Shown here piece after piece: positions 2,727 to 53,766 of a stretch of 64,000 nt of DNA. Source of the DNA: Olivibacter domesticus (lineage in GTDB: Bacteria; Bacteroidota; Bacteroidia; Sphingobacteriales; Sphingobacteriaceae). Within the stretch, counting starts at the first letter, position 1. Each line of letters opens with the position of its first letter. The translations under genes and the position numbers were made by a program. The stretch lies in NCBI RefSeq assembly GCF_900109575.1, contig NZ_FOAF01000005.1, forward strand, positions 1 through 64,000, read 5' to 3'. Below the pieces are notes generated by a model. That model saw only the letters and a list, made by a program, of their open reading frames with translations. It had not been told where the DNA came from and did no database searches.

Positions 2727-2791
2727 CAAAGATAAAATTCTCCAAGCTTCTATGAATGTAAGATGTTAACAAGCTTTTGTAGTATATTAGC
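2727..2791 (-). promoter_or_regulatory. PUL promoter P1: direct repeat plus -7 box, for the GH78 gene
   Basis: On the minus strand a perfect -7 box TATCTTTG (plus-strand 2727-2734) lies 24 nt from the proximal repeat (plus TAAGATGTTAAC, 2759-2770). The distal repeat (plus TAGTATATTAGC, 2780-2791) starts exactly 21 nt further on. The distal copy differs from the consensus TAGGATNTTATC at two places. Spacing is identical to promoters P2-P4 in this window. No -33 TTG box is obvious, as expected for an activator-dependent promoter. Confidence 0.65.
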
Positions 2792-2839
2792 TAGTAAAAT
2801 AGAACGTTTGTTTTATCAAGATATTCTTCCCGCTAACGC

Positions 2840-3264
2840 GGGAGGGTGTTTTTCTTTTTTTTCATCATGCAATTTTTCTTTTATAGGCATTCAAGCTTTC
2901 CCTTTCAGGGAAGGTTTCTTAACAAAAAAAGAAACAAAAAAGTCAAGGCTACACAGACTTCGCTAAAAATGGTTTCCCCAACTTGTTCCATGAAGCCGTT
3001 TCGCTACGCTTCACTTGTCATAGAACTAATCTCGCGCATTGAAACCATTTTCTCACGCTCATGCTGTGAGGCCGTCCAACCCTACGCTCGGGAGCCCCGT
3101 TTGACGGCCGTTGGCATGCTACAACTTCGTTTATTTCTGCTCGCAACTGCTCTCCGTTCTGCCTAAAACCCGCCTTAGTCAGCTGCGACTTGCAGGAAGA
3201 TGCACTGGCTTTGTAGCAGCTGTCTACAGCGGGAGTCTTTGCTACTTTCTTCGGAAGAAAGTAG
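2840..3264. repeat. Dispersed intergenic repeat, family 1, copy A
   Basis: This is a GC-richer non-coding block between the SSS gene and the GH78 gene. It begins with short hairpins (GTTTCTT/AAGAAAC, 2914-2920 with 2929-2935) and ends with a perfect 10-bp hairpin CTACTTTCTT-CGG-AAGAAAGTAG (3242-3264). An internal stem GGCCGTC/GACGGCC pairs 3070-3076 with 3103-3109. The stretch 3143-3240 aligns, at roughly 70 % by eye, with 14803-14905. Open frames through it differ between copies and look spurious. Confidence 0.65.
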
Positions 3265-3278
3265 ATGAAATAACACCA

Positions 3279-4859
3279 CTAATGCCCACTAAAAATAATA
3301 TAAAGCAACAACATAACTACAATTAATAATCCCCATGCCCACCGTACACGCATGGTCGGTTTTACAGCTAGATACGGAATATCGGGCAGGTTCTCTTTAT
3401 TTCTTGTAAACACTGAAACGACCACGGCAAAAATCAATAACAACAAAAAAATGAAAAAAGATAACAACAAGTAATGTGGCCAGATCGGATACTTATCTGG
3501 GGTGAATATCCAAAGATAACAGACCCCTACCCCCAAACTAAAGGCCGATCCTAGGGAAAGAACAAGGTTTACCGCCCGTCTACTGGTTCCTTTCCAAAAG
3601 ACGGTTAAAAGGAATATAACAGATAAGGGGGGCGCAATAAACCCGAGTACCGACTGAAATACATCAAATAAGTTCAAGCCTTTAATCTGATCGATTGCTA
3701 TGGCCGTCATAATGGCAAATAAACAGCCTACAAAAATCGTCAGCCTACCAATATGTAATATCTGCCGGGCATTCGCTTTCGGATTAATCCTTTTAACATA
3801 GATGTCCATGGTAAAAACAGTACTTAAGGAATTTAATGAAGATCCGATGGTACCCACTAAAACAGCAATCAGCACAACGATAACCAATCCGTTCAATCCT
3901 GTCGGAAAAAGATTGGTTACCATTGTCATATATGCTTCAGAGGGGTCTTTAAGATTCGGGTACAGTATAGCGCATAAAACCCCCGTAAGGATAAAGAGCG
4001 GCAAGGACAATATTTTTAACCAAGCGATGAAATTCACGCCTAATTGCCCTTGTTCAAGATTTTTAGCACCCAATACCGATTGTACCATAGCTTGATCGGT
4101 GCAGAAAAAAGCGATGGCCGCCACGGGATATCCTAATAAGATAGCGTACCAAGGATAATCGGGGTCAGATGCCGGGCGTATCAGATTCCAGTAGTCACTT
4201 GGTACCGCATGGTATACGGCTGAAGGTCCGCCCGCCTTTGCCAGACCTAAAATACTAAGAAAGCAGGAAACCGCGATCAGCAATAACATTTGAAAAATAT
4301 TGATCCGTGCGATTGTTTTTAGTCCACCGACATACGTGAAAAAAGCAGCAAAAAACACCAAGACGATGACCGACTGCCACATGGGTATACCTAAAACCTG
4401 ACGAATTAAAAAACCGCCTGCAAAAAGCCCCAAAGAAAGCCAGGATATCAACATTTTAATCAACGAATACCAAGCCAATATAGTGCGGGTGGTATCGCCA
4501 TACCGTTTCCCCATAAACTCTGGAAGTGTCATCACCTGAGCAGATAAGTACCGAGGAGCAAACACAATGGCCAGCAATAATAGAAAAACAAAAGCATACC
4601 AATCGAAATTGACGGCCACAATACCCGTTGTATAGCCGATGCTGGCAAATGCCAGCAACATAGAGGGGCCCACATTCGTGGCCCACATGTTAAACCCTAT
4701 GCTCGCCCAGCCGAGTGATTTGTTAGCAAGAAATAAGGGTTCATCCTGTTGTTTTTTACTAAAAATGCTCGAGCGAAGTCCTATGAAGATTAATAATAGT
4801 AGATAACCTACTATAATACCATAATCGAGCAGGGTTAATTTTGATGCAATATTTTCCAT
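3279..4859 (-). CDS. Sodium/solute symporter (SSS family)
   Basis: This is an inner-membrane transporter of the SSS/SGLT family, 526 residues, close to the usual size. The sequence is almost wholly hydrophobic, with about 13-14 predicted transmembrane segments. Family features seen are the first helix LDYGIIVGYLLLLIFIG, the P..LANKSLGW segment after it, and the GGLKTIARINIFQ region characteristic of SSS transporters. It probably moves a monosaccharide or uronic acid released by the locus into the cytoplasm with Na+; the substrate cannot be read from the sequence. It follows the Gfo/Idh/MocA gene by 16 nt and is the last gene of the SusC-led operon. Confidence 0.88.
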   Translation of the reverse strand: MENIASKLTLLDYGIIVGYLLLLIFIGLRSSIFSKKQQDEPLFLANKSLGWASIGFNMWATNVGPSMLLAFASIGYTTGIVAVNFDWYAFVFLLLLAIVFAPRYLSAQVMTLPEFMGKRYGDTTRTILAWYSLIKMLISWLSLGLFAGGFLIRQVLGIPMWQSVIVLVFFAAFFTYVGGLKTIARINIFQMLLLIAVSCFLSILGLAKAGGPSAVYHAVPSDYWNLIRPASDPDYPWYAILLGYPVAAIAFFCTDQAMVQSVLGAKNLEQGQLGVNFIAWLKILSLPLFILTGVLCAILYPNLKDPSEAYMTMVTNLFPTGLNGLVIVVLIAVLVGTIGSSLNSLSTVFTMDIYVKRINPKANARQILHIGRLTIFVGCLFAIMTAIAIDQIKGLNLFDVFQSVLGFIAPPLSVIFLLTVFWKGTSRRAVNLVLSLGSAFSLGVGVCYLWIFTPDKYPIWPHYLLLSFFIFLLLLIFAVVVSVFTRNKENLPDIPYLAVKPTMRVRWAWGLLIVVMLLLYIIFSGH

Positions 4860-4875
4860 TCTACTTATTTGCGAC

Positions 4876-6926: not shown

Positions 6927-6933
6927 GCTGTAC

Positions 6934-9711: not shown

Positions 9712-9742
9712 CGAACAATTCTTTTATTAACATATTTTTAAT

Positions 9743-11173: not shown

Positions 11174-11184
11174 TTCTCAAGTTT

Positions 11185-14100
11185 TTAAAAATCGATTTTT
11201 GCTCCAAAAGTGATGACTCTAGGTAAGGGGTATGAACCGTAGTCTACCCCAATAAAGGCGCCCGTTGGCACGCTAACAGAAGCAGTTGCGGTAGGCGTAG
11301 CATTGGAAAATATATTGCTGTAAGAGGTCGACTGATAAGTAGTATTTTCTGGATCGTAATTTTTATATTTACTCCATAGGTAAACATTTTCTGCATTGGC
11401 AAATATTCGAATACCTTTAGCCGGTGTGCGCTTCACCCATTTTTGCGGTAAACTATAAGAAACGCGTATATTCTTTAACCGCACGAATGTAGCATCCTCT
11501 ACCCAATAGCTGGAGAATCGCTCCTGATAGCCCTTAGGATCTACCGTGGGTTTGAAGTGCCAGCCATCGCCAGGGTCATTTTCTGACTTCCAATAGTTGG
11601 CAACATCCGCATAAGCATTGCGCCCGGCATTCCATATACCGTTAAAACGAGTCAGTTGATTCGTTATCTCTCCGCCGAACGATCCTTGAAACAAAAAGGA
11701 CAGTTCTACCCCCTTAAATTGAAAAGTGTTATTTAACCCGATAATGAAATTGGGTTGATTATTTCCGATAATAGTGCGGTCCGCTTCGGTTATTTTGCCG
11801 TCGCCATCTACATCTTTAATTTTAGGATCTCCAGGCTTAGTAAAGCCGTCGCCGTTTGCAGGACTTGCATCGATTTCAGCTTGATTTCTGTATGCACCCT
11901 CATAAACATACCCGAAAAAGTTAGAGATCGGCTGTCCTACTTCTGTCTTTACCTGCACGACATAATCGGTATAAACTAACGGCGCATTGCCTGGCCCTAA
12001 CTGTAGTACCTTATTACGGTTGAGTGAAAAATTAAAATCTGTTGACCATTTCAGTGATCCATTGGTATTCCGACTGTTTAAGTTAAACTCAAAACCTTGG
12101 TTTCTCAATTTTCCAACATTGCTGAGCTGCGTAGCAAAACCGGTTATATCCGGCACAGGAACATTCAATAAAAGATCATTGGTAACGGAGTGATAATATT
12201 CAGCACTCATCCGAATACGATCACTGAACAAGCCCATATCAATTCCTACATTGAGCATATTGGTACGTTCCCATCTCAGATCAGCATTGGCAATATTGGT
12301 GATAATTAAACCGGTAGCTAAATCACTACCGTAAACATAATTGGAAGCACCTAGCAGCCCAATCGGCCCGTAATTCGGTATTTGATTGTTACCAGTTGCA
12401 CCGTAACTCACACGTAATTTCAAATTATTAATTGCTTTAGGATGAAAGAAGTCTTCATCAGAAATCACCCAACCACCTGAAACAGACGGGAAATAACCAT
12501 ATCGATTATTGGCACCAAACCGAGAGCTTCCATCCCTGCGCAATACAGCCGACAAAAAGTATTTGTTTTTATAATTATAGTTAACGCGACCAAGGTAAGA
12601 AATCATCGCCCATTCATAGGCTAACGAAGTACCTCCATTCACTGTTCCGGCATTTAAGGTTGGAACTAAATTATTTGGAAAATTACCAGCAGAAAGTGCC
12701 TGATATTCATCTCTTTGCTTTTGCACCGTGTACCCGAGCAAAGCATCTAGGTTATGGTCTCCAAATTGCCGGGAGAAATTCAGGGTGTTCTCGGACAACC
12801 AATTTAACATAAACCTAGAATTAGCATTACCCTGTGCCGGTAATGCAGAAGAGTATCCATATTTCTGGTCTTTATTCCAGAACATCTCAAAACGTGTGTT
12901 AAGAAGATTTGCGTTAATACTCGTCTTAAACTTCAACCCCTCTAAGAATTCATATTCAGCGAAAGCCGTACCTAAGGTGTTGAAAGATTTATTCTGTTTA
13001 TGCAATTCCCTCGTCAGCGAATAAGGATGCCACAGTTGTAAATCAGAATACCGTGCAAAACGATACCATTCTGAATTGGGGTCTTTGAATCCTAAGTTGC
13101 CATTTTCATTGTAAATAGGAAAAATAGGTGCACTCTGTAAACCCAAACTGATGACGTCACTTTTACCTTCCGTTCCTTCTGTACGGTCGTACACCCCCGT
13201 AACACCTAAATTAAGTCCTACTGCAAATTTTTCAGAGACTTGCTGTCTAATATTAGATCGTAAGGTAAGCCGCTTAAGATAATTTTGATCGAGTACTGCT
13301 TCCTGATCCAGGTAGTTACCCGAAAATAGAAATTGGGTCTTTTCTGTTCCACCAGATACCGACAGCTGCGCATTATGTGAAGGGGCTGTTCTAAACATCA
13401 CCTCTTGCCAATCTGTACCATTTCCTAAGGCAGCACGTCTAGCGGGATCGGTAAAATCTTCTGGAATTCGGAAAGGGCCCGTCCGAACACTATTTGGATC
13501 GCTCGCGCTGCGGCCTTCTCCAGAGTTTATCCAACCATTATTATGTGCATCTACATAATACTGTATATATTGCTGCGCATCCATTAATTCAATCGGGCGG
13601 GTTACTTTTTGTATCCCATACTCATAATTGAATCCCACATTTGTCGCCCCGGGTTTTCCTAATTTAGTGGTAACCAATACAACCCCATTTGCCCCACGTG
13701 AGCCATAAATAGCGGCAGAAGAGGCATCTTTAAGCACTTCAACCGATTCAATATCCTGTGGGTTGATGTTATTGAGGTTAAAATTTTCAATGGGCATACC
13801 ATCTACTACATACAGGGGGTTCGTACCCGCTGTAATCGAACTGGTACCCCTTATTCTAACATTAGGTGATTGGCCTGGCGCCCCTTGCGACTGCGTTATG
13901 TTAACGCCGGCAAGCTGGCCAGCTAGTGATTGCGCTACATTGCTAAAGGAGCGATCTTGAAATTTTTCATGGTTGATGGAGGCTACTGCGCCTGTAATGG
14001 CTCGTTTACTTTGTGTACCGTAACCTACTACCACCACTTCATCCAGATGTTGTTCACTTGCAACAAGGGCAATATTAATAGAAGAGGTAGTTTGACTTAA

Positions 14101-14349
14101 CGGTAACTCCCGACTTTCGTAGCCGATGGACGAAAAAGTAAGAGCGTTGGTGTTTACAGGTATCTCTATAAGAAAATGGCCCTCACCATCTGTCACTGTA
14201 CTCTTGGTTCCATCTTTTGTTTTGATTCCTACGCCAGGAAGGGGTACCTTACTTTGGGAGTCAACAACGATTCCTTTTATGGAACGACTTTGACAATAAG
14301 CAATTTCAACGCAAAGCCAAAGGCTCAGAAATAATACAGTTAACTTCAT
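11185..14349 (-). CDS. susC: SusC/RagA-family TonB-dependent transporter
   Basis: This is an outer-membrane barrel that imports oligosaccharides with its SusD partner. I prefer the ATG at 14349, giving signal peptide MKLTVLFLSLWLCVEIAYC, over the in-frame ATG at 14391. Next come a carboxypeptidase-regulatory-like domain (IKGIVVDSQSKVPLPGV…), the TonB box region DEVVVVGYGTQ, a plug domain (VESVEVLKDASSAAIYGSRG) and a C-terminal beta-barrel of about 800 residues. There is no N-terminal STN extension, so control by an ECF sigma/anti-sigma pair through this protein is unlikely. It is the first gene after promoter P2. Confidence 0.95.
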   Translation of the reverse strand: MKLTVLFLSLWLCVEIAYCQSRSIKGIVVDSQSKVPLPGVGIKTKDGTKSTVTDGEGHFLIEIPVNTNALTFSSIGYESRELPLSQTTSSINIALVASEQHLDEVVVVGYGTQSKRAITGAVASINHEKFQDRSFSNVAQSLAGQLAGVNITQSQGAPGQSPNVRIRGTSSITAGTNPLYVVDGMPIENFNLNNINPQDIESVEVLKDASSAAIYGSRGANGVVLVTTKLGKPGATNVGFNYEYGIQKVTRPIELMDAQQYIQYYVDAHNNGWINSGEGRSASDPNSVRTGPFRIPEDFTDPARRAALGNGTDWQEVMFRTAPSHNAQLSVSGGTEKTQFLFSGNYLDQEAVLDQNYLKRLTLRSNIRQQVSEKFAVGLNLGVTGVYDRTEGTEGKSDVISLGLQSAPIFPIYNENGNLGFKDPNSEWYRFARYSDLQLWHPYSLTRELHKQNKSFNTLGTAFAEYEFLEGLKFKTSINANLLNTRFEMFWNKDQKYGYSSALPAQGNANSRFMLNWLSENTLNFSRQFGDHNLDALLGYTVQKQRDEYQALSAGNFPNNLVPTLNAGTVNGGTSLAYEWAMISYLGRVNYNYKNKYFLSAVLRRDGSSRFGANNRYGYFPSVSGGWVISDEDFFHPKAINNLKLRVSYGATGNNQIPNYGPIGLLGASNYVYGSDLATGLIITNIANADLRWERTNMLNVGIDMGLFSDRIRMSAEYYHSVTNDLLLNVPVPDITGFATQLSNVGKLRNQGFEFNLNSRNTNGSLKWSTDFNFSLNRNKVLQLGPGNAPLVYTDYVVQVKTEVGQPISNFFGYVYEGAYRNQAEIDASPANGDGFTKPGDPKIKDVDGDGKITEADRTIIGNNQPNFIIGLNNTFQFKGVELSFLFQGSFGGEITNQLTRFNGIWNAGRNAYADVANYWKSENDPGDGWHFKPTVDPKGYQERFSSYWVEDATFVRLKNIRVSYSLPQKWVKRTPAKGIRIFANAENVYLWSKYKNYDPENTTYQSTSYSNIFSNATPTATASVSVPTGAFIGVDYGSYPLPRVITFGAKIDF

Positions 14350-14407
14350 TGAATCAGGTTTATAAATTAATAAAGGGAATTCAAAGCCCAAATATTGGTT
14401 TAATTGT

Positions 14408-14472
14408 CAAATCTACATTTTAGATACAATGAAGTTTTATAGCATATTTCCCTGCTTTTGTAGGATTTTATC
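14408..14472 (-). promoter_or_regulatory. PUL promoter P2: direct repeat plus -7 box, for the SusC-led operon
   Basis: On the minus strand the -7 box TAGATTTG (plus 14408-14415) is 24 nt from the proximal repeat (plus TAGCATATTTCC, 14440-14451). The distal repeat (plus TAGGATTTTATC, 14461-14472) starts 21 nt further. The 17-mer TTTTGTAGGATTTTATC and the whole stretch to -7 closely match promoter P3, including a shared TTATAGCA and TTTCCCT. The likely transcription start is about 50 nt upstream of the susC start. Confidence 0.75.
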
Positions 14473-16974: not shown

Positions 16975-18003
16975 TTATAAAGAACTGCGTAACTGTAAAC
17001 AAAAGTCTAATGCAATATCTTGTGCCATGTTATCTTTGATAGTCTTAGCTGTTAGTTCACCCATTTGTCTATAATTGGTGCTGATGGTAGTAATTCCTCC
17101 CACCATATATTTCTTCAGTGGTGTATCGTTATAAGAAATAATACCAATATCTCTACCAATAATAAAAGATGTATCCTTTATTTTATCTAGTAAACTTACT
17201 AGATCATCATCATTAACACAGATGTATACTTCTCCTTTTTTTAGTTCAATTTTCTCAATGCTGTCTAAAACACCTCTTTCGAAAGCGTACTGTTGGCAGA
17301 AACTGTTGAAACCTCTCTTTATATCAACAGGTAAATAACTTTTTTTATGGAAAATTAGTTGTAAGGTATCATACTTACTTAAAGCTGACAATGCCTGTTC
17401 TAAAGCTTTATAAATATCTCCTTCAAAATCTTCATATATAGTTGTATGATTACCTTTAACTCGTTTTAGACGTTTATCTAATATAACTAGTTTTTCTTTT
17501 GGCAATGTATCAATCAAGGCTTCTGCTTCTTCTTCATTATCGATAAAATGCGGTAATATTACATAGTGCGTATAATCTTGCCTTTTATTCAGTAAACGCT
17601 TAAATAAATAAAAATCATTGTTGTAAACATAAAAATCAATTGGAATATCAGTACCAAGATCTTCTATAAAACGTTGATAAAATAGATTTTTTCCATCACT
17701 AATTTTATTTACAAGCAGACAAATACGTAGCGGATTATTTATTTCGGTAGTGGATATAAAATGACCCTTTCCGGGTACCGCTTTTAGGATTCCTAAGTAT
17801 CGCAAATATTTATATCCCCTGTCGGCCGTTTCTCTCGAAATCTCTAGGTGATTAGTCAACTCATTCAAAGAAGGTAATAGATTGTTTTGTTGAAACTTCC
17901 CCTGTTTGATGGCACTTAAAATGGCATATGCTAATTGCAGGTATTTCGGCGTTGACGAATAGCTATCAACGTGTACGTGGTCGAAAAAAAAGCTGTTATT
18001 CAT
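16975..18003 (-). CDS. GntR-type transcriptional regulator with LacI-like sensor domain
   Basis: This is a cytoplasmic DNA-binding regulator, the only transcription factor I find in the window. Residues about 18-88 form a GntR winged helix-turn-helix (LAYAILSAIKQGKFQQNNLLPS, then SRETADRGYKYLRYLGILKAVPGKGHFIS). Residues about 92-330 look like a periplasmic-binding-protein/LacI-type ligand domain (RICLLVNKISDG, IGIISYNDTPLKKYMVGGITTIS). Such proteins in Bacteroidota usually sense a sugar and repress or activate nearby sugar genes. It sits between the GH2 and GH141-like genes on the same strand. Its operator and ligand are unknown; the direct-repeat motif described here looks more like an AraC-type target. 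Confidence 0.85.
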   Translation of the reverse strand: MNNSFFFDHVHVDSYSSTPKYLQLAYAILSAIKQGKFQQNNLLPSLNELTNHLEISRETADRGYKYLRYLGILKAVPGKGHFISTTEINNPLRICLLVNKISDGKNLFYQRFIEDLGTDIPIDFYVYNNDFYLFKRLLNKRQDYTHYVILPHFIDNEEEAEALIDTLPKEKLVILDKRLKRVKGNHTTIYEDFEGDIYKALEQALSALSKYDTLQLIFHKKSYLPVDIKRGFNSFCQQYAFERGVLDSIEKIELKKGEVYICVNDDDLVSLLDKIKDTSFIIGRDIGIISYNDTPLKKYMVGGITTISTNYRQMGELTAKTIKDNMAQDIALDFCLQLRSSL

Positions 18004-24747: not shown

Positions 24748-24812
24748 CAAAGATAGGTGGGATTTCTCTTCTGTGCTTATAGCAATTTTCCCTTATTTTG
24801 TAGGATCTTATC
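24748..24812 (-). promoter_or_regulatory. PUL promoter P3: direct repeat plus -7 box, for the GH78-led operon
   Basis: On the minus strand a perfect -7 box TATCTTTG (plus 24748-24755) lies 24 nt from the proximal repeat (plus TAGCAATTTTCC, 24780-24791). The distal repeat (plus TAGGATCTTATC, 24801-24812) starts 21 nt further. With P2 it shares TTATAGCAWWTTTCCCT and TTTTGTAGGATNTTATC at identical spacing. The rest of the gap (24813-24974) shows no gene; it must include the 3' end of the upstream unit, but I see no clear terminator. Confidence 0.75.
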
Positions 24813-36906: not shown

Positions 36907-38757
36907 TTACCCAGGTTCGGCACTGAATTCGGTGATATAATAAATTGCTTCTTTCTCCTGCTCTCCTGCATTCTTTAAGTCAAAATCCTGATCCGTTGGT
37001 GTATCTGCATCCGGAAACCGTCGTACTTGACCTGTTCTGAAAGCAACACGGTTAATACTCGCCACTGGTGCAAAAAATATTTTAGTCCCCGTCTGCTTGC
37101 CATTCAGAGTCACTGTATACGAACGGGTGCTTACATCTAAATTTAATTCAATCTTTATCGGCTTACCCGATTCATAGCTATCCAGTTTTGAATCGCGGTA
37201 CCCGGCTTTCGTCTTGAGCAAACTATCTTTATCCAAAATTAAACGGACAGCAGCTTGTCCTTTAGGGTCCAAAAACTCCACATGTAATACCCCATGATCT
37301 GTTTGTTGAGGAAGCACTGTAAATTTGACTGCCAGTTTTTTGCTGGTAGGTACAACACGTTCTGCTTTCGCATAATCAAAGGGATCTTTATCATGCAGGG
37401 TTAAAGCTTTATGGCCATTAGGCGCTTTTTCTATTTTTACAGAAGCCCAAAGCGGACTGTAAAGATTCCAGTAGGTTAATTCCTCACCATTCGGAAGCTG
37501 AGAAAAAACTTCATGAACAGGTTGATCAACATGATCTTTAACCGGTATTGGGATACGTGCTACCCACATATCTTCCTTATTCATGCTATAGGATACCCAC
37601 ATCGACTCACCGGGGGGAGTACCGTTTCCTTCGACAATACCTCTTACGTATTGCGGACCATACGATTTATAATTACCGCCATAACGCATGGAAGAAATTT
37701 CACCGTTCACCAATAACAAATTTTTATAATGAATACCGTCATCGCTGGTCGATATCGCCAAAGGCCATCTAAACTCTGAAGGGTTATATACCGTGGCGTA
37801 ACGTCCATCTTTTGTCCGTTGCCCCCATATTTTTGCATTGCTATTCACAAAGCCAGGAGCTCGTAAAGGATCGTATGCCCATGTTTTTCCGTCATCGGTA
37901 CTGATGGATGTAAGCGCATGCTTCCATAACCCCACGACGTTGCCATTCGGTAGATGATAAAAATTAAAGGCTTTTATCGCCCGCTTCAAGGGGATTAATG
38001 GATCATCACGATCGGCCTCCTCTACCCATTGCTGCACCATTAAGGGCTGTGCTAATAACTCATTACAAGCTTCTACAAAACCTTTATCCTTGTTCGATGT
38101 ATAGAAAGGGAAAGCGGATAGTTTTTTATCCCAAGAGGCATTGTTCCGAATAAAATGAATCGGTCCGAAATTACCATCTTTATATACCTCTCTTATTACT
38201 CTACCAATACCGTTGCCATCATTCGGATCATCTTTTGCGTCCATCGCCACACCGTAATAGCCTAACACGAATAAGCGATTGCTTTTCGATACATAAAAAC
38301 CCATGCGCTGATGCATGATGGCGTAGAGATCTTTGGCGACCTTATCATTTCCTTTTTTCTTCCAACCATCGGGTATTTTATAAGGTGGGAAAACCACCAC
38401 GGGATCAGACCATTGATAACCATCCTTCGACGTCTGTAATAAACTTTCGCTTGGTGGAATATGCTCGCCAACGGGATCGCTCAAAAACTCCAAGAAGAAT
38501 TGATTATTCCAATAAGCCAACATCGGCTGATGGTTGTAGGTCCAGTTATGCCCTCCTGCCAATTCTGGATGCTCTCTATTGGTGCGAAATACCTGTATGT
38601 TATGTACGCCAACGGCTGGACTTAACTGGCCGTGGTGATAATCGACATTAGATAAAGTGTTACCTGTATACTTTACGGTATCTTGTGCGGCGGCAGTTAT
38701 CCAACATATGAAGGATATACTGGAAAACACTATTGTTGTTTTTAGTTTGAATGACAT
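36907..38757 (-). CDS. Exported beta-propeller protein with C-terminal lectin-like domain, function unknown
   Basis: A 616-residue secreted protein with signal peptide about 1-24 (ITAAA/QDT). Residues about 60-410 have propeller-type repeats with Asp-box-like segments (LLQTSKDGYQWSD, SISTDDGKTWAYD, AISTSDDGIHYKN). Residues about 430-610 look like a concanavalin-type beta-sandwich (KLAVKFTVLPQQTDHGVLHVEFLD, RSYTVTLNGKQ, YYITEFSAEPG). This build resembles uncharacterised sialidase-fold proteins of pectin and gum loci, which might be hydrolases or lyases. No catalytic residues can be named from sequence alone. Family-2 repeats flank the gene on both sides. Confidence 0.6.
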   Translation of the reverse strand: MSFKLKTTIVFSSISFICWITAAAQDTVKYTGNTLSNVDYHHGQLSPAVGVHNIQVFRTNREHPELAGGHNWTYNHQPMLAYWNNQFFLEFLSDPVGEHIPPSESLLQTSKDGYQWSDPVVVFPPYKIPDGWKKKGNDKVAKDLYAIMHQRMGFYVSKSNRLFVLGYYGVAMDAKDDPNDGNGIGRVIREVYKDGNFGPIHFIRNNASWDKKLSAFPFYTSNKDKGFVEACNELLAQPLMVQQWVEEADRDDPLIPLKRAIKAFNFYHLPNGNVVGLWKHALTSISTDDGKTWAYDPLRAPGFVNSNAKIWGQRTKDGRYATVYNPSEFRWPLAISTSDDGIHYKNLLLVNGEISSMRYGGNYKSYGPQYVRGIVEGNGTPPGESMWVSYSMNKEDMWVARIPIPVKDHVDQPVHEVFSQLPNGEELTYWNLYSPLWASVKIEKAPNGHKALTLHDKDPFDYAKAERVVPTSKKLAVKFTVLPQQTDHGVLHVEFLDPKGQAAVRLILDKDSLLKTKAGYRDSKLDSYESGKPIKIELNLDVSTRSYTVTLNGKQTGTKIFFAPVASINRVAFRTGQVRRFPDADTPTDQDFDLKNAGEQEKEAIYYITEFSAEPG

Positions 38758-39874: not shown

Positions 39875-40320
39875 ATATTTTAATGAACGATGAACGTTCT
39901 TGAATGATGAATAATGAGTGATGAGTGATGAATTCATAATTTACCAAGTTTTTTCTTAACCGTTAGTATGGAGCTTTTTAGGATTAGTAAAATCTCACTT
40001 CCGTATTTAGTAAGTAGTTCGAATGTATCTTTTTCCAGATAATCTGACTGAAACAATAATTCAAGCCAATACAGTGTTTCATCACATTCTTTTTGTGCGA
40101 TAGCAAGCTTATGAATAAAGTCCATTTTACTTTCAGCGTTATTTGCTTCCCTTACCAACGCGCCAATTGCGGTGCCGCTTCTCAATAACTGTTTACTTAG
40201 CACAAATTCCTTTTTGTCGCCGGAAAGTTGTTTATAGACGTTGATGATCTCTAGTGCAAATTGAAAACTCTTCTCCTTTAAAATACTCATAACTCATCGT
40301 TCATAACTTATCACTAAATT
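39875..40320. mobile_element. Candidate S23/IVP gene cassette bounded by inverted ATGA-rich tracts
   Basis: The 118-codon gene is flanked on the left (39883-39937) by plus-strand GAACGATGAACG and TGATGAATAATGAGTGATGAG, and on the right (40286-40313) by CTCATAACTCATCGTTCATA. The two tracts are in opposite orientation and share the inverted core GAACGATGA / TCATCGTTC. The unit separates two glycosidase genes of one operon. This is consistent with insertion of a small mobile or formerly mobile cassette. No transposase is present. Confidence 0.4.
39934..40290 (-). CDS. Four-helix-bundle protein (23S rRNA intervening-sequence/S23 family)
   Basis: A 118-residue cytoplasmic protein without signal peptide, unlike its neighbours. 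The pattern SFQFALEIINVYKQL, LRSGTAIGALVREANNAESKMDFIHKLAIAQKECDETLYWLELL is the signature of the S23/IVP four-helix-bundle family. That family also includes the accessory (Avd) proteins of diversity-generating retroelements. No reverse transcriptase, template repeat or 23S rRNA is nearby, so it is a solitary copy. It has no evident role in pectin degradation. Both its start and its stop lie inside ATGA-rich degenerate repeats, and its stop overlaps an ATG of the GH43 frame. Confidence 0.88.
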   Translation of the reverse strand: MSILKEKSFQFALEIINVYKQLSGDKKEFVLSKQLLRSGTAIGALVREANNAESKMDFIHKLAIAQKECDETLYWLELLFQSDYLEKDTFELLTKYGSEILLILKSSILTVKKKLGKL

Positions 40321-41725
40321 AAATCGCCTCCAAAACCAACACCCAATCATTCCCGTCCTGCTTGCCACCGGGGGTCTCAAACGTTTGAACACCTTCATTC
40401 GCTATCTCATTGATAGGCGTATATTCACCTTTACGGGGATCAAACCAAGAAGCCTTCAATTTGGCAGCTGACAATTTCGCTGCATTAACTTTAATTGTGC
40501 CACCATTATAGGTATAGATTAATGCATAATCCTTACCTCGTGTGGCCACTTTGTAATCATATTTTTCACCATTCTCGGCTAGTAACGATTGGTCAGGCAC
40601 GCGATCCAAAAACGACTTGGACAACATCAGTTCTTTCAGATACTGCATTTGTCCTGCTCCCGGATTCTTGATAGCGTCTTGCCATAATTCGGTTGCTCCA
40701 TAAGCTGCAGTTGAATCGCTATCGCTTTCGTTCAGAAACTGCATGACAGAATTATTACCATAAGTAAAGCCAAAGGCACCAGAAAATACCGACCAATAAG
40801 CGTATCGGCGGATATCTTTATCCGTCCACCTTGGTTCCTTTGGATCATGCAACCCTTGCGGAATTCCTTCATAAGACGGTTCCCCATCAATGGTTGGCTT
40901 TGTTGGCTTCAGTTGATAGTCACCTTGTACGAAGCGCCAATTATCTTCACCGTAATGATTCGTTTCATCAGCCGAAGTATCTTGATCATAGCGCCTATGT
41001 CCCGATTGGAACATATTAAAATCTAACCAAGGTTCTTCATGAAACCATTCAGAAGAGGTCGTACGCCCTCTAGGGTGGAAGGTAATAAGGTGGTTGGAAT
41101 CGAGTTCGTTTAATGTATTTCCTATAGTCTTCCAAACTTGAATCGAGTCGCTTCCTTTAAGATCACCTCCATTTAACCAAATAATATTTGGAGCAGACGT
41201 GTAACGGTTAGCAAGAAAACTGGCGTAAGCTTTCGCCTGCTCCGTTGTAACGCCCCCCTCTTTTACATTGGTACCCCAAACGGGCACTAAGGCCATATAG
41301 ATATTTTTTTCAGCGGCTTTTTTAACAGCGTAGTCTACCAGTTGCCAATAATTAAGCTTTGTCGAATCCTGCTGCGCAGCCGCATCTCCACTATTGGGTT
41401 TCGAAACATCGTGCGCTATAAGAGCGGAGTCCCCGTATACGTTCTTGCTTGATAAACTATGCAATAACATCACCTGGATCACATTAAATCCTTTTTGTTT
41501 ACGATCTTCAAGGTACTGATCTATTTCTTCCTTTGTGAGTTTACTAAATAATAACCAGCCGGTATCACCTAACCAAAAAAAAGGTTTACCATCTTCGGTC
41601 ACAACAAAACGCTGATTATCGGAAACTTTTAAACGTTGCAGTGATGCCTCTTGTTGCTGCTTATTGGTACAGGCAACGATCGCTATCAAAGCAAATAAAA
41701 TCACATAGGTGCTAGATTTCATCAT
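40319..41725 (-). CDS. GH140 apiosidase-like lipoprotein
   Basis: The start at 41725 (or 41722) gives lipoprotein signal MMKSSTYVILFALIAIVAC. The body is the DUF4038-type TIM barrel (FFWLGDTGWLLFSKLTKEEIDQYLEDRK, then GFNVIQVMLLH). Candidate catalytic residues are the Asp in IIWLNGGDL (about 188 from this start) and the Glu in TIDGEPSYEG (about 282), as known for GH140. The C-terminal domain ends DWVLVLEAI, typical of the putative collagen-binding domain. GH140 removes D-apiose linked to galacturonan in RG-II, so this gene is a strong pointer to RG-II as substrate. It lies 14 nt downstream of the beta-helix/DUF6298 gene. Confidence 0.88.
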   Translation of the reverse strand: MMKSSTYVILFALIAIVACTNKQQQEASLQRLKVSDNQRFVVTEDGKPFFWLGDTGWLLFSKLTKEEIDQYLEDRKQKGFNVIQVMLLHSLSSKNVYGDSALIAHDVSKPNSGDAAAQQDSTKLNYWQLVDYAVKKAAEKNIYMALVPVWGTNVKEGGVTTEQAKAYASFLANRYTSAPNIIWLNGGDLKGSDSIQVWKTIGNTLNELDSNHLITFHPRGRTTSSEWFHEEPWLDFNMFQSGHRRYDQDTSADETNHYGEDNWRFVQGDYQLKPTKPTIDGEPSYEGIPQGLHDPKEPRWTDKDIRRYAYWSVFSGAFGFTYGNNSVMQFLNESDSDSTAAYGATELWQDAIKNPGAGQMQYLKELMLSKSFLDRVPDQSLLAENGEKYDYKVATRGKDYALIYTYNGGTIKVNAAKLSAAKLKASWFDPRKGEYTPINEIANEGVQTFETPGGKQDGNDWVLVLEAI

Positions 41726-41739
41726 AATTATATTGGTTA

Positions 41740-44700
41740 TTAAGCATGGTGCAACCACACAATGCTTGGATTAGTATCTTGTAATTGAATTGTTTGTTTT
41801 TTACCGCCGTCGACTTTCCGTTCTCCTGTAATTTCTCCTGTTGTGGCATTGATATAGCTTATAACGTACTTTCCTTGCTTGCGAGCTAAGTCGAGCTCAA
41901 TTTCCTGCTGTCCATCTATATAAATAATTTGCTCATTATCTCCCTGAAGGATATAGACTCCATTTTCTTCACTTGGTCGTGGCTTCATATGTTGGGCTGC
42001 CGATAAAAAATCAACAGGCAGTGTGGCTGGGATAGCTGCTAATGATCCACCGCCCATGAATACTGCCCAGCCGTTACTTTCAGCGCTATTAGCGGAATAG
42101 ATTACTGCTTTATCTGGGTAACGTTCGCGATAGGTTGAAACCGCCTGAAAAACTTTTTCGAATGAAGTCTTCTTTGGTTTAAACAAACGCGCCTGTTGAC
42201 GTGGTGCCAGATGTTGTCCCCCTTTTGGTTCGTAGGTATTTCCGTCTGCTTGTTCATACCAGTATCGAATATCAATCACATTGATTATCTTACTTCGTTT
42301 AGCGTCACTTAATATAGCGTCTTGCACATCTTTTGTGGTACTCAATCCAATAAGTGCTTTTTGTTTATTTTCTATTTCCCATTCCCTGATGATATCCAGC
42401 CAAAACTGGACAAAATGGAGCGGTCCGGTATATTCAGCACCTGTTAATTGAAGCACTCCTTTATTCTCCTTGAAATTATCCAGGCATTGTCTAATATAAG
42501 CACGATGAATGGATGCGCGGTCATTACTGGGAACATCATAGAACTGAGCATCCATGAAAATACGCTTATCGCCCGCATAAGGAGGGGGTTCGGGAAAACC
42601 GGTTTGATTTATATTGTTCGCACTCCGCCACGGGAAATCAGCATAATGCGCACCTGCTTCGATGATATTATGCTGAAAATAATTTTGATGTACCAATAAA
42701 ATATCCTGTTGCGCTGCTAAATTGGCAAATGTTTTTAATCTAGACCAGTACCATTTGTTGTACTTGGTTAAATCATACTTACTTAACCCATCCCAAGCCT
42801 TTTCTTTTCCACTGCGTGCGAAAGGCAATTCATAGAAGGGAGGCCATACCTCACCATCCGTTCTGCGGATACGTTCATGGTCATCTCTTCTTCTATCATA
42901 CCATAAACCGTAGTTATGTTCAAAGGCAACTACCTGATGCGCCCGCAATGTATCGATTACCGAAGCGAGTTCATCCGTGAGGCCATTACCTATCTGTCCA
43001 GGAACGAAGCGTGTGATATGCGGACGGGCTTTCGCCAACCAATATCGACGGGAACTTCCGTTCCACCATTGTACATCTTGTCTTTTTCCTATTAATACTC
43101 CCTTATGTCCAACCAACCAGCCATTCTCTACATGGATCGCCGATGTAATAGACGCTTTAGCCTTCTCAGACACCCTTGCCATCACCTTTGCACCATTCGC
43201 CTGTAGTGAAATAGGTGTTCGATCCTTTGCTTGGTCAATAAATTCACTGAGTGTTAATAAGGGATTATTCGCTAACTGTGTCAATTCTTCCGCAACGTCC
43301 ACAGATGGACTGCTGGAAGCTTCCGTTTCAGCTGGCATTAAAATCATTCTTTTATCAGCAACCACTTCGCCCAAGCGCTGTTTCAATTGCGCATAATATA
43401 AGCTTTGTGGTTTAATGTGTTCGTTAGACTGCTCCCAATAGCCATCACCCGCAAATTGTGCCCATGTACCAAAAGCCCAATTTTGTGCGGTTGGAGGTTG
43501 GTAACACTCCACGCGTGCAGCTGAACATTGCCAAAACACACTATTTGCCGCGGCCCAACCTGCACCATTTCCATCTTGCTCCAAGTTGGCAAAACGTAAG
43601 GCCTGTCCATCAATATTCATGCAATCAAAGAGATTGCCTGAAGACCAACTATCAACTGCACCGCTAAAGCTGAATGGTTGTACCGATTGGCATTGCACAA
43701 AGGCATTCGGTCCCGCAGCCATGAAACCAACGGCGTAATCATGATAGCCCTGTTCAGCATATAACCGTTGAAAAAGTGTCTGCTGCCCACTTGTGAAAAA
43801 CGTATACCTTCTTTGCCCTCCTATTTCCGAAATCGGTTCTAACGATTTACAGTCTTCAACAGTAATACGTTTTCCCGTTTCAGCGATGAATACTACCGAA
43901 CCTGCAAAATGTTTAAAATTCACCTGCCTTACCCATGCGTCTTCCACATTTTCCATCGTAATAGCCATCCACCGATGATCTTCATCTTTGGGGTTTGAAG
44001 TATCATAAGTCGATTCTAGGCTTAAATTTTCGATACCGATGTTGCGAACACGCCCTTTCCACTCATATGTGCTGATCATTGCCGCTTCATCATCCTGATC
44101 CAACGCCGTTGTAATGGGCGCATCTATGTAAATCTTATGCCCTTCGATTTTAGTGATCTTTCTATCCCAAAAAATATCGCGTTGCCCCGGCTTCCAACCT
44201 AATGCGGTAATACCCCCACCAAAATGATCGGTTTTCAACGTCCGAATCCATTTATCCGAAGACGGCCTATGGATGGTGATTTCATCGCCTTTCTTAAATA
44301 CCGAACCGTTCTTTACCTCAAAAGCCATCGCATTGACCGGAACATATGATGTACTAATATCTTCCTTATAGTGATGGACACTATCCATTATGCCTGCAAC
44401 TCGAATTAATGTCTCCCTGTTTTTCCCTGATCCTATCAATTGCGTACCATCCGTACCAGCACCACTTCCACGCAATACGATACCTGAAACAGGAATCATT
44501 AAATTCCCGACAATTTGATAAGTACCCTTTTCAAGAAGTATGGCACCACGAAATCCATTTTTATTGAGCGGAAGTTTGGCAACATAGTCGATGGCAGATT
44601 GGATGGTGGCAGTTGCATCTTCCACTTGATGCTTAATAACTGCTTTCACTTCGACAAAAGGAATTTCCTCATTCCCAGCTTTATAGCCACTATAGGAAAA

Positions 44701-44901: not shown

Positions 44902-46563
44902 TTAATTTTTAGCAATAACCGGGGCCACCGTTTTTATATCAACCAAGCTATTCAAATAATTCTCAATATTGGTATAACCATTCGCAGCATATTTGGAAGC
45001 ATCGCTTGGATCATTCGGATTCAAGCCATTCTTTTTCTCCCATTCGTCTGGTAGACCATCTTTATCGGCATCCTTGTAAGGAGTTCCTTTGTATTCAGGA
45101 TAACCACCTACCTGACTAATGTCTGTTATAATTCCTTGTTTATACGAATCAATTGGCAGACGACGATGTTCAAACTGCGTCGTTGGCAATTTTACATCTT
45201 TTATATAATTTATCTTTCCTGTTCTTACCTGCTCGATCACACGCGTGTCTACTGGATCTCTTTTTGGAAGCGTTGCGCCTACATTTTCCAAAACGTAACT
45301 ATAAGCTTTTTTTGTTGGCATAATACTAATATCAGCCATAGGAAGTGGTTTATCATAGCGCATTTTAGCAAAGTAGGTTTTGGCCGTTTCAAAGTCCATT
45401 TCATTTCCATCTTTCCCTTCAATCTGAACACCACCATCCCAATTATCTTTTGTTACGCGCTCATTCCCCTCCACAATATTACCTTCCATGTGCACGCGCC
45501 CAAAAACAACATAAGGCAATTTGCTTCTACCAGATTCAGGTTTCAAAATACGGTATCCCACAGGTGAATCCTTCGGTGTTAAAGGGCCCGGTTTGTAATA
45601 GTTATTTATAATATTGTACAATGCTTTATAATCACCACCATCCGTTGAGCGGTGTACCCAGTTAAAGACTACATTATTCGCAAAGTTGAACACACCATTC
45701 CAGCCGATTGATGGATTTCTTCCAGCGTTATCCGCCCACAGGTTACGCATAAAAGTACAGTTTTCTCCACCCAATGTGCTACCAAATGCATGATTCCAAG
45801 TATCTAGTGCTTCAGAAAATATGGAGTTCTGAATGGTAATATTTACGGTTCCAAGTTTTTCTTCTGCTGCTTTACCCGTACTATCATTATACATATGACG
45901 ATACATGGACATATTCTCATCTAGTCCCCAACTTGCGGATACATGGTCAATCATGATATTGCCAACGGGGTTTCCGCCAATTGCATCATCTCTTCTGCCA
46001 ACCCAAGTTTCTCCCCTTCTAAAACGCATAAACCTAATGATCACGTCGTGCGTATTGATCCACACCGATTCGCCCGCCACGCATACTCCATCACCTGGAG
46101 CAGATTGACCAGCAATTGTTATATAAGGTGCTCTAATGATCAAAGGGGTTTTCAGTTTTATAATTCCTGCTACATTGAATACAATCGTTCTAGCGCCCCC
46201 TTGCTCACACGCTTCCCTCAGCGTTCCAGGGCCATTATCGGCTAAGCTGGTCACTACAATAACTTTACCCCCGCGTCCGCCAAAAGAATAGGCTCCTCCA
46301 CCTTCTGCGCCGGGAAATGCAGGCACTTCGGCTTGCCGTAAATCAATTGCTTTTGCTGCCCAGGGTATGTAAGGTTTCCCATTTTTAGCCTCCTCTTCAA
46401 TAATCGGCAAAGCCTTTTGCCAGGCAATTTCTGATTGCCACTCGGCAGCTTTCATCAACGAATCACTCGACCGCTTTACGTCCGCAGGTATTTTTGGATA
46501 TTGAGCATATGTTGTGGTTGCAACCCCAATCAATAGTGGCACTATTAAAAAAAGTTTTCTCAT
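44902..46563 (-). CDS. Exported PL1-family pectate/pectin lyase
   Basis: This secreted parallel beta-helix lyase should cut the galacturonan backbone by beta-elimination. Signal peptide about 1-20 (TTYA/QYP). Family segments are VPAFPGAEGGGAYSFGGRGG, PGTLREACEQGGARTIVFNVAG, VIIRFMRFRRGETW, IMIDHVSASWGLDEN (Ca-binding Asp/Glu region), and NLWADNAGRNPSIG with the candidate catalytic Arg. The C-terminus carries a calcium-binding thrombospondin-3-like segment DADKDGLPDEWEKKNGLNP (about 490-510). It is the first gene after promoter P4. Confidence 0.92.
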   Translation of the reverse strand: MRKLFLIVPLLIGVATTTYAQYPKIPADVKRSSDSLMKAAEWQSEIAWQKALPIIEEEAKNGKPYIPWAAKAIDLRQAEVPAFPGAEGGGAYSFGGRGGKVIVVTSLADNGPGTLREACEQGGARTIVFNVAGIIKLKTPLIIRAPYITIAGQSAPGDGVCVAGESVWINTHDVIIRFMRFRRGETWVGRRDDAIGGNPVGNIMIDHVSASWGLDENMSMYRHMYNDSTGKAAEEKLGTVNITIQNSIFSEALDTWNHAFGSTLGGENCTFMRNLWADNAGRNPSIGWNGVFNFANNVVFNWVHRSTDGGDYKALYNIINNYYKPGPLTPKDSPVGYRILKPESGRSKLPYVVFGRVHMEGNIVEGNERVTKDNWDGGVQIEGKDGNEMDFETAKTYFAKMRYDKPLPMADISIMPTKKAYSYVLENVGATLPKRDPVDTRVIEQVRTGKINYIKDVKLPTTQFEHRRLPIDSYKQGIITDISQVGGYPEYKGTPYKDADKDGLPDEWEKKNGLNPNDPSDASKYAANGYTNIENYLNSLVDIKTVAPVIAKN

Positions 46564-46647: not shown

Positions 46648-46712
46648 CAAATATCGTCAATATGACACTATATATTCTATATAATTTTGACTCGATATTA
46701 TAGGATATTATC
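46648..46712 (-). promoter_or_regulatory. PUL promoter P4: direct repeat plus -7 box, for the PL1-led operon
   Basis: On the minus strand the -7 box is GATATTTG (plus 46648-46655, one mismatch to TAnnTTTG), 24 nt from the proximal repeat (plus TATAATTTTGAC, 46680-46691, the weakest copy). The distal repeat (plus TAGGATATTATC, 46701-46712) starts 21 nt further and is a perfect consensus match. The likely transcription start is about 80 nt before the PL1 ATG. Confidence 0.7.
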
Positions 46713-46896: not shown

Positions 46897-46939
46897 CGCA
46901 TTCATCAAAAAACTAAAATTTTTATACTGGTTGAATTAT

Positions 46940-47335: not shown

Positions 47336-47377
47336 AATTTATTAAATAATAGGTTAAACATTGTACTGAATTACTAT

Positions 47378-49339: not shown

Positions 49340-49359
49340 GGTGATCAAATAATGGTGTA

Positions 49360-52300: not shown

Positions 52301-52776
52301 TCGGCCAGTTTCTTGACATCTACTGAAACGATTGCGCCTGTTACATCTCTGGCCCGTTGCGTGCCATATCCCACCACAACCACTTCATCTAAAGCGCTAT
52401 TGTCGTCCTGCAGCACAATATTCAAGCTGCGTTGTCCATTCACTGGAACTTCTTGCGTTTTATATCCTACATAACTAAAAATCAAGATTTCATTACCTGT
52501 AGGTAAGTTTAATCTAAAAACCCCGTCAGCATTTGTAGTAGTGGTAGTTTTACTTCCTTTTAGTTTGATACTTACCCCTGGAAGAGGTTCCCCTTTCGCA
52601 GTTTTTACCGTTCCAGTGATATTTACACGGCGTTCCCCCACAACCGTCTTTACACTGGTATTCTCACCTTCGGCATAGGACAAAGACGAAACACCTAATG
52701 ATGAAAATACTAGGAAAAACACCCCAATTTTTAATCGGTTCCTAGCCATAAAATTAATTTTAGATCTTAGATTCAT
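49360..52776 (-). CDS. susC: SusC/RagA-family TonB-dependent transporter (second pair)
   Basis: A 1138-residue outer-membrane importer. The start may be the ATG at 52776 or at 52749; the latter gives MARNRLKIGVFFLVFSSLG as signal peptide. Domains are a carboxypeptidase-regulatory-like domain (VNITGTVKTAKGEPLPGVSI), the TonB-box region DEVVVVGYGTQ, the plug (IESITVLKDASAAIYGSRAS) and the beta-barrel ending YPTLRTWSLGINLGL. No STN extension is present. It follows the DUF3826 gene by about 100 nt and precedes its SusD partner. Confidence 0.95.
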   Translation of the reverse strand: MNLRSKINFMARNRLKIGVFFLVFSSLGVSSLSYAEGENTSVKTVVGERRVNITGTVKTAKGEPLPGVSIKLKGSKTTTTTNADGVFRLNLPTGNEILIFSYVGYKTQEVPVNGQRSLNIVLQDDNSALDEVVVVGYGTQRARDVTGAIVSVDVKKLADIPVASVSESLRGQIPGLNVSGGSTRPGAMATLSVRQQFNWGKDGGNDYPLVIIDDVIQVDAQTGKPSMERFNMLDVSEIESITVLKDASAAIYGSRASQGAIVVKTKRGQVGAPRISYSGKFQTNDAVSHEKVMNARQYGEFANKFGRALGWNDNYFYSDAELSQMESLNYDWLTNDWRAANTMQHSLDVSGGSERATYYTGASYYTQGANLGSQDFKRWTFRAGTEVKVASDLRLSATLAAANTDLDRSFTKINFSDGYATGGEQNDYSVLLHMPKYIPWVYNINGVDQYVSPALGPNKLGNVSGNNSLSNWNYYDMLNNGSKTTNKDFNYNANFSLQYDVPFLKGLSFKFNYGLTQASGNTEQVQMPLLLARARNINTADNHLYSNTTQWDDPLLNRANSRVTYDNTTSKNEQLNFFANYNQKFGDHDIGAMFSVEKTTAGWEDRYQIYDNPTRGVYNGTSISAGTLNTSNTITYRTESGTLSYLGRVNYSYKSRYLLQFVFRTDASTKFAPENYWGFFPGVSAGWVVSDENWFTENVAWMNYLKVRASVGITGNNNVNPWKWARLYTAATDKGMAFGNNGGMYTTGITPDADPNRDLRWDRTVQRNLGLDMSFLKSQLSMSLDGYYNTTTDMLTDMSGAIGVPISVGGAFAEQNYAGVKAWGTEVSVTWKSNVNEVNYSIGMNFGLNNYKTTRYFDQPFDYPADMTTRRAVGNTGYGNPVWGYKTWKNTSGGDGMLRTDADIDAYWNYLTENASNSGIEGAEPNFMGITDKSQMKKGMLVYEDVRGALDPSTQSYGGPNGVIEKDSRQDWEVLKKSNMNYGITTNLSAGWKGVSFQAQISTSWGGANYLDYVKQGTSSTHALWSQTIYLTDMYDPETNPNGKYPNIAYYDDFGGTNSDFFLLPTFRMFVRSLSIGYTLPKKWLTKAKVDNVRIFLSGNNLWDFYNPYPSKYRNMYDSPGTGYPTLRTWSLGINLGL

Positions 52777-52876
52777 AAGGTTTGGTTATATAAATTTTAA
52801 AATGGTTATTTTGAGTTTATTCAAAGGATATAAACAACAAACAATTGTCTTTATACAAAAAGTTAAAGATTCATGT

Positions 52877-53554
52877 TTAGGACTGTGCCTTCTTCGCTCT
52901 TTCTTCTCTTTTAAGCTTCTCCTCCCACACTTTTCTAGCTTCTTTCGTTTCAACGCCCTCTTTCGAAAGGTAGTTATTGATTTTACCCTTGTATTTTCCA
53001 AACCACCAGTGCTTTTCTTTTGATGACCCACCATCCATCGCTTTTTCCCGCGCTTCTGTTAAATAGCTTAAAATTTGTTTTTTCTGAACGTCCGTTAGGG
53101 CGGGCAACATGTCTAGATAGCCCTTGTATGTAATGGGCAGCACATTGTAAGTCATCTCATTTTTGACCGTCTCCACTTGTTCATTGCTTAATTGTTTTTT
53201 CAGGACTTTCAGGTAATCACCATGCAAATGGGTAAGCTTTTCACTCTTTTGCTTTTCTAATTTCCCCAGCTCGTCTGCTGAGGAAGAAGCATTTTCTAGC
53301 GCCTTCTTTTGTCCCTCATGCCAGATTTGCACCTCATTTAGATTGCTGTATTGTTTAACTATAATATCGCGCACAACAGCACCTTGGGCTTTTTCAAGAT
53401 CTAGCTTGTCTACTATTTTCTGAGCTCTTTTAGTGATTACCTGCGTATATTCGTCCTGATTAATACGATACGCATAAGCATGTTGTGCACCAAAGATCAA
53501 CATGCATAGGACAAAGGATAATAATATCGATTTCATTTTTATGGATTTCATCAT
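52877..53554 (-). CDS. Exported DUF3826-family protein (copy 2)
   Basis: A 225-residue, helical and highly charged secreted protein. Several ATGs (53554, 53551, 53536) precede the signal peptide (MKSILLSFVLCMLIFGAQHAYA). DUF3826 features are KIVDKLDLEKAQGAVVRDIIVKQY, LNEVQIWHE, TYNVLPITYKGYLDMLPALTDVQKKQILSYLTEARE and KHWWFGKYKGKINNYLSKEG. The function of the family is unknown. It is the first gene after promoter P5, so it is co-transcribed with the SusC/SusD pair, whereas copy 1 is coupled to a sialidase-fold enzyme. Confidence 0.82.
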   Translation of the reverse strand: MMKSIKMKSILLSFVLCMLIFGAQHAYAYRINQDEYTQVITKRAQKIVDKLDLEKAQGAVVRDIIVKQYSNLNEVQIWHEGQKKALENASSSADELGKLEKQKSEKLTHLHGDYLKVLKKQLSNEQVETVKNEMTYNVLPITYKGYLDMLPALTDVQKKQILSYLTEAREKAMDGGSSKEKHWWFGKYKGKINNYLSKEGVETKEARKVWEEKLKREERAKKAQS

Positions 53555-53700
53555 TATATAGGTGATTAACTATTCTTGTTTAGTGTTAATTTGACGCTTT
53601 TTTAGCTAAACACAAAAAACACAACTGTTCACTGTTAAAACTTAAAAATTGGAAAGGCCTACGATTTTTGTTTTAAACGTTTCCAAATGGTTAGCACATA

Positions 53701-53766
53701 CAAATATGCAAAGCATCGTATATACTTTTTTTACAAATTATTATCTACTTATTGTAGGATATTATC
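53701..53766 (-). promoter_or_regulatory. PUL promoter P5: direct repeat plus -7 box, for the DUF3826-SusCD operon
   Basis: On the minus strand the -7 box is CATATTTG (plus 53701-53708, one mismatch). The proximal repeat (plus CAAATTATTATC, 53734-53745) and the perfect distal repeat (plus TAGGATATTATC, 53755-53766) are 21 nt apart. The spacing to -7 is 25 nt, one more than in P1-P4. The leader to the DUF3826 start is long (about 140 nt) and otherwise shows nothing I recognise. Confidence 0.65.

Follow-up and report, generated by a model that had tools for sequence, protein, structure and literature searches.

Which regulator reads the repeated element found in front of five transcription units of Olivibacter domesticus, and which other genes carry the same element? 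In this study, we analyzed a stretch of 64,000 nucleotides from this member of the Bacteroidota (assembly GCF_900109575.1, contig NZ_FOAF01000005.1, hereafter C7, positions 1 to 64,000 of the forward strand), referred to as the window. Sequence comparison indicates that its five sites are very probably operators of one AraC-family one-component activator of approximately 290 aa, predicted at G000:C10:327087-327968 (contig C10 of the same genome, G000). The site geometry, the spacing to the -7 box, the conservation of both, and the co-occurrence and linkage of the sites with the regulator gene are directly established.

Architecture of the five sites

Each site consists of two 12-bp boxes on the minus strand whose starts are 21 bp apart in the alignment of all five. 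The aligned layout is G[AC]TAANATNCTA, followed by 9 nt and a degenerate second copy. In eight Olivibacter sites (the five window sites and three found later), the distal 12-mer and the 12-mer 21 nt downstream agree on average at 7.4 of 12 positions, compared with 1.5-5.0 for every other spacing between 13 and 31. A -7 box follows at a nearly constant distance and resembles TAnnTTTG, described as the sigma-A consensus of Flavobacterium psychrophilum (PMC9723704). The sites and boxes are as follows.

2756..2791, minus strand: S1, direct repeat of 12+9+12 (+3), upstream of the alpha-rhamnosidase-like unit 509-2704
2727..2734, minus strand: -7 box of S1, TATCTTTG, 24 nt beyond the proximal 12-mer
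14437..14472, minus strand: S2, upstream of a SusC/SusD operon (SusC 11185-14391)
14408..14415, minus strand: -7 box of S2, TAGATTTG, 24 nt beyond the proximal 12-mer
24777..24812, minus strand: S3, upstream of the GH78 gene 21909-24683
24748..24755, minus strand: -7 box of S3, TATCTTTG, 24 nt beyond the proximal 12-mer
46677..46712, minus strand: S4, upstream of 44902-46563 (weak match to a PelZ-type pectate lyase), DUF6298 and the apiosidase unit (GH140)
46648..46655, minus strand: -7 box of S4, GATATTTG (5/6 letters), 24 nt beyond the proximal 12-mer
53731..53766, minus strand: S5, upstream of the DUF3826 gene 52877-53554 and a second SusC/SusD pair
53701..53708, minus strand: -7 box of S5, CATATTTG (5/6 letters), 25 nt beyond the proximal 12-mer

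Translation of SusC 11185-14391 more likely begins at the in-frame ATG at 14349 than at the TTG given in the list. A first-pass annotation, made from the letters of the window alone, had described these five sites with a copy spacing of exactly 21 nt and a TAnnTTTG-like box at a fixed distance. All five are present on the minus strand where it placed them, the spacing is exact in each, and the box lies at 24 nt in four and at 25 nt in the fifth. It had singled out the proximal copy as the more degenerate, but the distal copy of S1, GCTAATATACTA, departs from the consensus as well.

Specificity of the two-box site in the genome

By itself, the half-site shows only weak enrichment in the AT-rich DNA of the window (27 matches with up to 3 mismatches versus 17.7 expected; 1 of 100 shuffles was as high). 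Four of the five exact matches in the genome fall in the window. With up to 2 mismatches, it matched the genome 76 times, fewer than the 100 matches of the reversed pattern. The half-site was therefore dropped as a search probe, and the two-box site alone was used.

The sites were combined into a 36-bp composite pattern, from which S1 deviates by 3 mismatches. Allowing up to 3 mismatches, this pattern gave 10 matches across the 6.78 Mb genome and none when reversed. Of the 10, 7 map to the end of contig C18 or within 65 kb of the start of C7. Together with C7:66297, which the composite pattern missed, the genome contains 11 sites: five in the window, two on C7 to its right, one on C18 and three on C10. 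A -7 box with at least 5 of 6 letters lies at 24 or 25 nt in 10 of the 11, the exception being C7:66297 (4/6). Sites outside the window include the following.

C7:64478 and C7:66297, just right of the window: upstream of a DHDPS and an SSF transporter gene
C18:120607, near the contig end: upstream of an operon for GH2, a solute-binding protein and CoA-transferase
C10:456130: upstream of genes for a RuBisCO-like protein and a kinase
C10, divergent from the AraC gene 327087-327968: between that gene and an operon for an iron-containing alcohol dehydrogenase (Fe-ADH), DHDPS, PdxA, a kinase and SSF

The proposal that the shared site defines a regulon is thus supported, although the set, at 11 sites, exceeds the five units originally listed. 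A conserved site with a -7-like box also precedes a SusC/SusD pair outside the locus in two Olivibacter genomes (G000:C10:2272772, L090; G004:C97:152781, L244). The C18 site may lie beside the locus. Positions 1-127 of the window, a short piece lacking any Pfam match, and G000:C18:120759-121013 presumably resemble the start and the end, respectively, of a single minus-strand IS110-type transposase, and C18 may be joined to C7 at this point.

Identification of the candidate regulator

The genome contains 114 matches to the AraC helix-turn-helix (HTH) domain and 11 to Y_Y_Y, the sensor domain of hybrid two-component systems (HTCS). The first-pass annotation had looked to the AraC or HTCS protein encoded nearest the locus. 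This expectation was not supported: no AraC HTH match was found in the window or on C18, the single one on C7 is at 233845, and there is no Y_Y_Y match on C7 or C18. The best candidate is unlinked to the window locus.

G000:C10:327087-327968: AraC candidate, 293 aa

Its sole Pfam matches are AraC HTH domains (PF12833, 63.2 bits, residues 208-285; PF00165, 39.3 bits, residues 256-283), which form a C-terminal double HTH of the AraC type; the periplasmic sensor, kinase and receiver of an HTCS chain were not matched. Solved structures align with it over the HTH region only.

The sole DNA-binding regulator among the window proteins scanned is of another type.

16975..18003, minus strand: GntR-type regulator with a LacI-like sensor

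We consider control of these promoters by this protein highly improbable. The motif is a direct repeat, regulators of the GntR/LacI type are expected on palindromes, and the gene is present in only 3 of 9 relative clusters, which had been selected for holding the motif. In 7 of the 9, the gene for an AraC protein of approximately 290 aa lies among the sites or at most approximately 26 kb away, and the C10 candidate is 60-68% identical to the AraC proteins of those clusters.

The same comparison bears on an HTCS as the controlling protein. Bacteroides HTCS motifs are described as direct repeats averaging 21 bp, and the rhamnogalacturonan motif of HTCS_Rgu-1 as two 12-bp sites with a 9-bp spacer (PMC3878776), a geometry like that of the present sites. 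Among the matches listed, Y_Y_Y is also present in all 22 motif genomes searched, and the Olivibacter genome itself has the matches noted above. Nevertheless, their absence from C7 and C18 argues against an HTCS, and an HTCS with an AraC HTH was found in 3 of the 9 relative clusters versus an AraC ortholog in 7; one of the three HTCS-bearing stretches had been chosen because its Y_Y_Y match was already listed. Moreover, the AraC ortholog possesses a conserved divergent site of its own. We therefore regard the HTCS as an improbable regulator of the sites. A fourth hybrid kinase, near the cluster of genome G050, lacks an AraC HTH. After comparison of the nine clusters, the HTCS and GntR/LacI readings were both ranked behind the AraC protein. 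Of the activator proposed in the first-pass annotation, the shared AraC-type character is supported and the HTCS identity is not.

Co-occurrence was assessed in a survey of 200 genomes, G000 included, of which 121 belong to the same family and 79 lie outside it. The composite pattern with up to 2 mismatches was found in 37 of the 200 genomes, all within the family (37/121 versus 0/79), with 100 matches versus 1 for the reversed pattern. Orthologs were defined by at least 57% identity, a cut-off chosen after the list was seen, with the best 12 candidates per genome scored. An AraC ortholog is encoded in 36 of the 37 motif genomes and in 8 of the 84 other family genomes (Fisher p 8e-22, kinship ignored). 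Six of the 8 extra genomes were examined, and all six have a site of at least 12 bits with a -7 box beside the gene. Counted by genus, 13 have both, 1 has the motif only, none has AraC only and 11 have neither (p 3e-6).

The two are also linked. The distance from the AraC gene to the nearest site is at most 10 kb in 25 of 36 genomes and at most 50 kb in 30. Around the named orthologs, the best 80 of 434 relatives of the candidate, 72 of the 80 loci have a divergent site of at least 12 bits no more than 800 bp from the AraC gene (70 with a -7 box); the reversed matrix gave 3. Four of the five Olivibacter genomes (G000, G001, G003 and G004) have the AraC gene outside the main cluster, beside the operon for Fe-ADH, DHDPS, PdxA, a kinase and SSF, and a site with a -7 box lies between the two. 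In the fifth (G002), which has no BT_1020-like gene, the AraC gene (60%) is 5 kb from the only site.

Conservation of the site and the -7 box

The search matrix was built from the eight Olivibacter sites and used at a main threshold of 18 bits. Sites are kept upstream of homologous operons in relatives, in agreement with the first-pass proposal: 137 sites of at least 18 bits occur in 71 of the 80 ortholog loci (reversed matrix, 3 sites in 3 loci). Hits from the fetched stretches and the 80 loci numbered 203, or 192 after removal of duplicates, mostly from relatives and including the eight training sites. TAnnTTTG (at least 5 of 6 letters) lies exactly 21 nt past the 36-mer in 183 of the 192, compared with an average of approximately 2 sites and a maximum of 13 at other offsets. 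Box conservation is partly selected, the matrix being trained on Olivibacter, and this weighs against our interpretation; the -7 box, which was left out of the matrix search, is free of that bias.

In 147 of the 192 cases, the gene after the site is a homolog of a gene from a site-bearing unit of the Olivibacter genome, most commonly the SSF transporter (52), DUF3826 (24) and the 553-aa protein encoded at 44902-46563 (18). SusC target matches often reach only approximately 28-38% identity, which denotes family membership and implies no orthology. A further 35 sites are upstream of a gene labelled L-fucose isomerase-like on the basis of Flavobacterium; no such gene is present in the stretches read of the Olivibacter genome. 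Of the remainder, 6 are unlabelled and 4 have no open reading frame.

The motif might instead serve several paralogous AraC regulators that divide the set among them. The 51% paralog at C10:138257 adjoins an SSF gene whose product is 70% identical to the regulon SSF, with a half-site and a -7 box, and a few genomes contain two copies of at least 57% identity. In 20 loci of 38-46% paralogs, picked from the list of scored ortholog candidates, no site reaches 18 bits. We consider such a division of the regulon unlikely. The region G000:C10:138236-142000 (L241) around this paralog also encodes a DHDPS 54% identical to that of the regulon, and its distal half-site and -7 box are accompanied by a poor proximal half; it is perhaps a duplicated regulatory module.

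Several further observations count against a single AraC activator of the whole set. One motif genome, G097, has no AraC ortholog, although its single match has no -7 box. No divergent site reaches the threshold in eight of the 80 ortholog loci, two of which, both from Olivibacter, show one with a wider matrix. A 14.6-bit match with a -7 box is present at one paralog locus. The AraC gene of G000 is far from the main cluster, and the C10:138257 paralog, beside its SSF/DHDPS pair and half-site, could share the targets. Finally, 13 family genomes have the AraC gene but no BT_1020-like gene; therefore, the regulator is not tied to rhamnogalacturonan II (RG-II) as a whole, and its core may be broader than RG-II.

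Gene content and link to RG-II

Enzymes acting on RG-II side chains comprise the BT_1020-like enzyme, apiosidase, GH78, GH95 and GH141. The window contains Pfam matches that fit such a locus, namely BT_1020-like, apiosidase (GH140), GH141, GH95, GH28 and three of the rhamnosidase type, from which substrate specificity is predicted. Two marker genes are the following.

36907..38757, minus strand: BT_1020-like enzyme, a marker of RG-II degradation
40319..41758, minus strand: GH140-type apiosidase-like enzyme in the S4 unit (Pfam Apiosidase)

We take the former to be a hydrolase releasing 3-deoxy-D-lyxo-heptulosaric acid (Dha), and BT0977-1030 of B. theta to be an RG-II locus. The BT_1020-like gene is present in 31 of the 121 family genomes, all 31 of which have the AraC ortholog, and in 2 of the 79 genomes outside the family. 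The 553-aa protein has no Pfam match and only a weak match to the pectate lyase PelZ (133 bits versus a cut-off of 840). Its counterparts in the seven relative clusters that contain it are 65-81% identical, and it is often encoded by the first gene after a site. In the C18 operon (L033:1457-7239), two solute-binding proteins flank two class III CoA-transferases, and none of the six proteins scanned is an ABC permease; a similar arrangement is located near the AraC gene in Flavobacterium daejeonense (L200).

Unlinked targets on C10

The RuBisCO-like protein and kinase downstream of C10:456130 best match OiaX (512.7 bits) and OiaK (448.9 bits), enzymes of 3-oxo-isoapionate breakdown, each below the curated cut-off of 700. 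OiaX occurs in 16 of the 36 motif genomes with an AraC ortholog, and all 16 have a BT_1020-like gene. Within 1.5 kb upstream, 2 of the 16 have a site in the correct orientation (G000 and G001, O. jilunii), 2 have one on the opposite strand (G003, where the -7 box is missing, and G028), and 12 have none, though several of them are close to the motif cluster. Outside the genus Olivibacter, the apionate link is weak.

The operon divergent from the regulator gene could serve Dha catabolism. A DHDPS-type aldolase would split Dha into pyruvate and a C4 aldehyde acid, Fe-ADH would reduce the latter to D-threonate, which the DUF1537-type kinase and the PdxA-like dehydrogenase would convert to dihydroxyacetone phosphate. 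Judging from the structures, the expected C4 product of a Dha aldolase has the D-threo form. The kinase best matches D-threonate kinase at 119.8 bits, far below the cut-off of 450. PdxA of this operon is present in 20 of the 121 family genomes, 19 of which also have a BT_1020-like gene, and the two lie within 40 kb of each other in 12 of these 19. It is 3.3-3.5 kb from the AraC gene in G000, G001, G003, G004 and G110, and near neither gene in G043 and G088; 12 family genomes have a BT_1020-like gene without it. No published Dha catabolism was found in the open-licence literature searched. Evenly balanced, in our judgment, is the wider proposal that the site marks the complete RG-II regulon, including sugar-specific pathways not known to belong to it, the Dha route among them.

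Proposed mechanism

We propose that two AraC subunits bind the two 12-bp half-sites on the same DNA face, two turns apart, and that the proximal half-site, abutting or overlapping the -33 region, allows recruitment of RNA polymerase. The target promoters would carry a good -7 box only. E. coli AraC recruits RNA polymerase at araI in a similar manner. For the AraC candidate, we infer binding, activation and an inducer. The regulon would serve the use of RG-II, a pectin, and would comprise, in the main locus, the two SusCD operons and the rhamnosidase, pectate lyase-like/GH140 and DUF3826 units; beyond the window, the adjoining SSF and DHDPS genes and the C18 operon; and, on C10, the apionate-type operon and the Fe-ADH/DHDPS/PdxA/kinase/SSF operon divergent from the regulator gene.

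Relation to known systems

RG-II is regarded as the most complex plant polysaccharide. The same pair of AraC protein and site seems to recur in Pedobacter, Flavobacterium, Hymenobacter and other Bacteroidota and to mark genes for RG-II use; from their names, these genera presumably belong to Sphingobacteriales, Cytophagales and Flavobacteriales. A soluble regulator and its site can be predicted together across them. The site serves as a tag for unlinked genes and suggests how transporters, aldolases and kinases may contribute to the use of rare RG-II sugars (apiose and Dha). No published AraC regulon for RG-II was found in the open-licence literature searched. What appears to be new is the predicted regulator, its unlinked targets (the apionate-type operon and one fitting Dha catabolism) and the spread over the phylum.

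Direct repeats of this 21-bp geometry have precedents among AraC and HTCS regulators. At araI1-araI2 of E. coli AraC, the half-sites are likewise 21 bp apart with the inner one beside the -35 region, whereas sequence, sigma factor and sugar differ. CgrA of the Zobellia carrageenan regulon is also of the AraC family, is needed for normal growth on the polysaccharide and has an induced network reaching distal genes; it differs in substrate, and the phrase "binding motif" is absent from the main text (PMC5698469). The AraC-family L-rhamnose regulators of Bacteroides, Bacillales and Enterococcus are described as one-component proteins on direct repeats with 21-bp periodicity (PMC3870299). Unlike the Olivibacter protein, they control L-rhamnose catabolism. 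For BT0981, the HTCS of B. theta locus BT0977-1030, no motif could be predicted according to the 2013 reconstruction (PMC3878776). HTCS_Rgu-1 and other Bacteroides HTCS regulons, as described there, resemble the present one in having an approximately 21-bp direct repeat before operons of rhamnogalacturonan polysaccharide utilization loci, one distant operon included; the regulator in Bacteroides is a membrane hybrid sensor, whereas that of Olivibacter would be a one-component protein.

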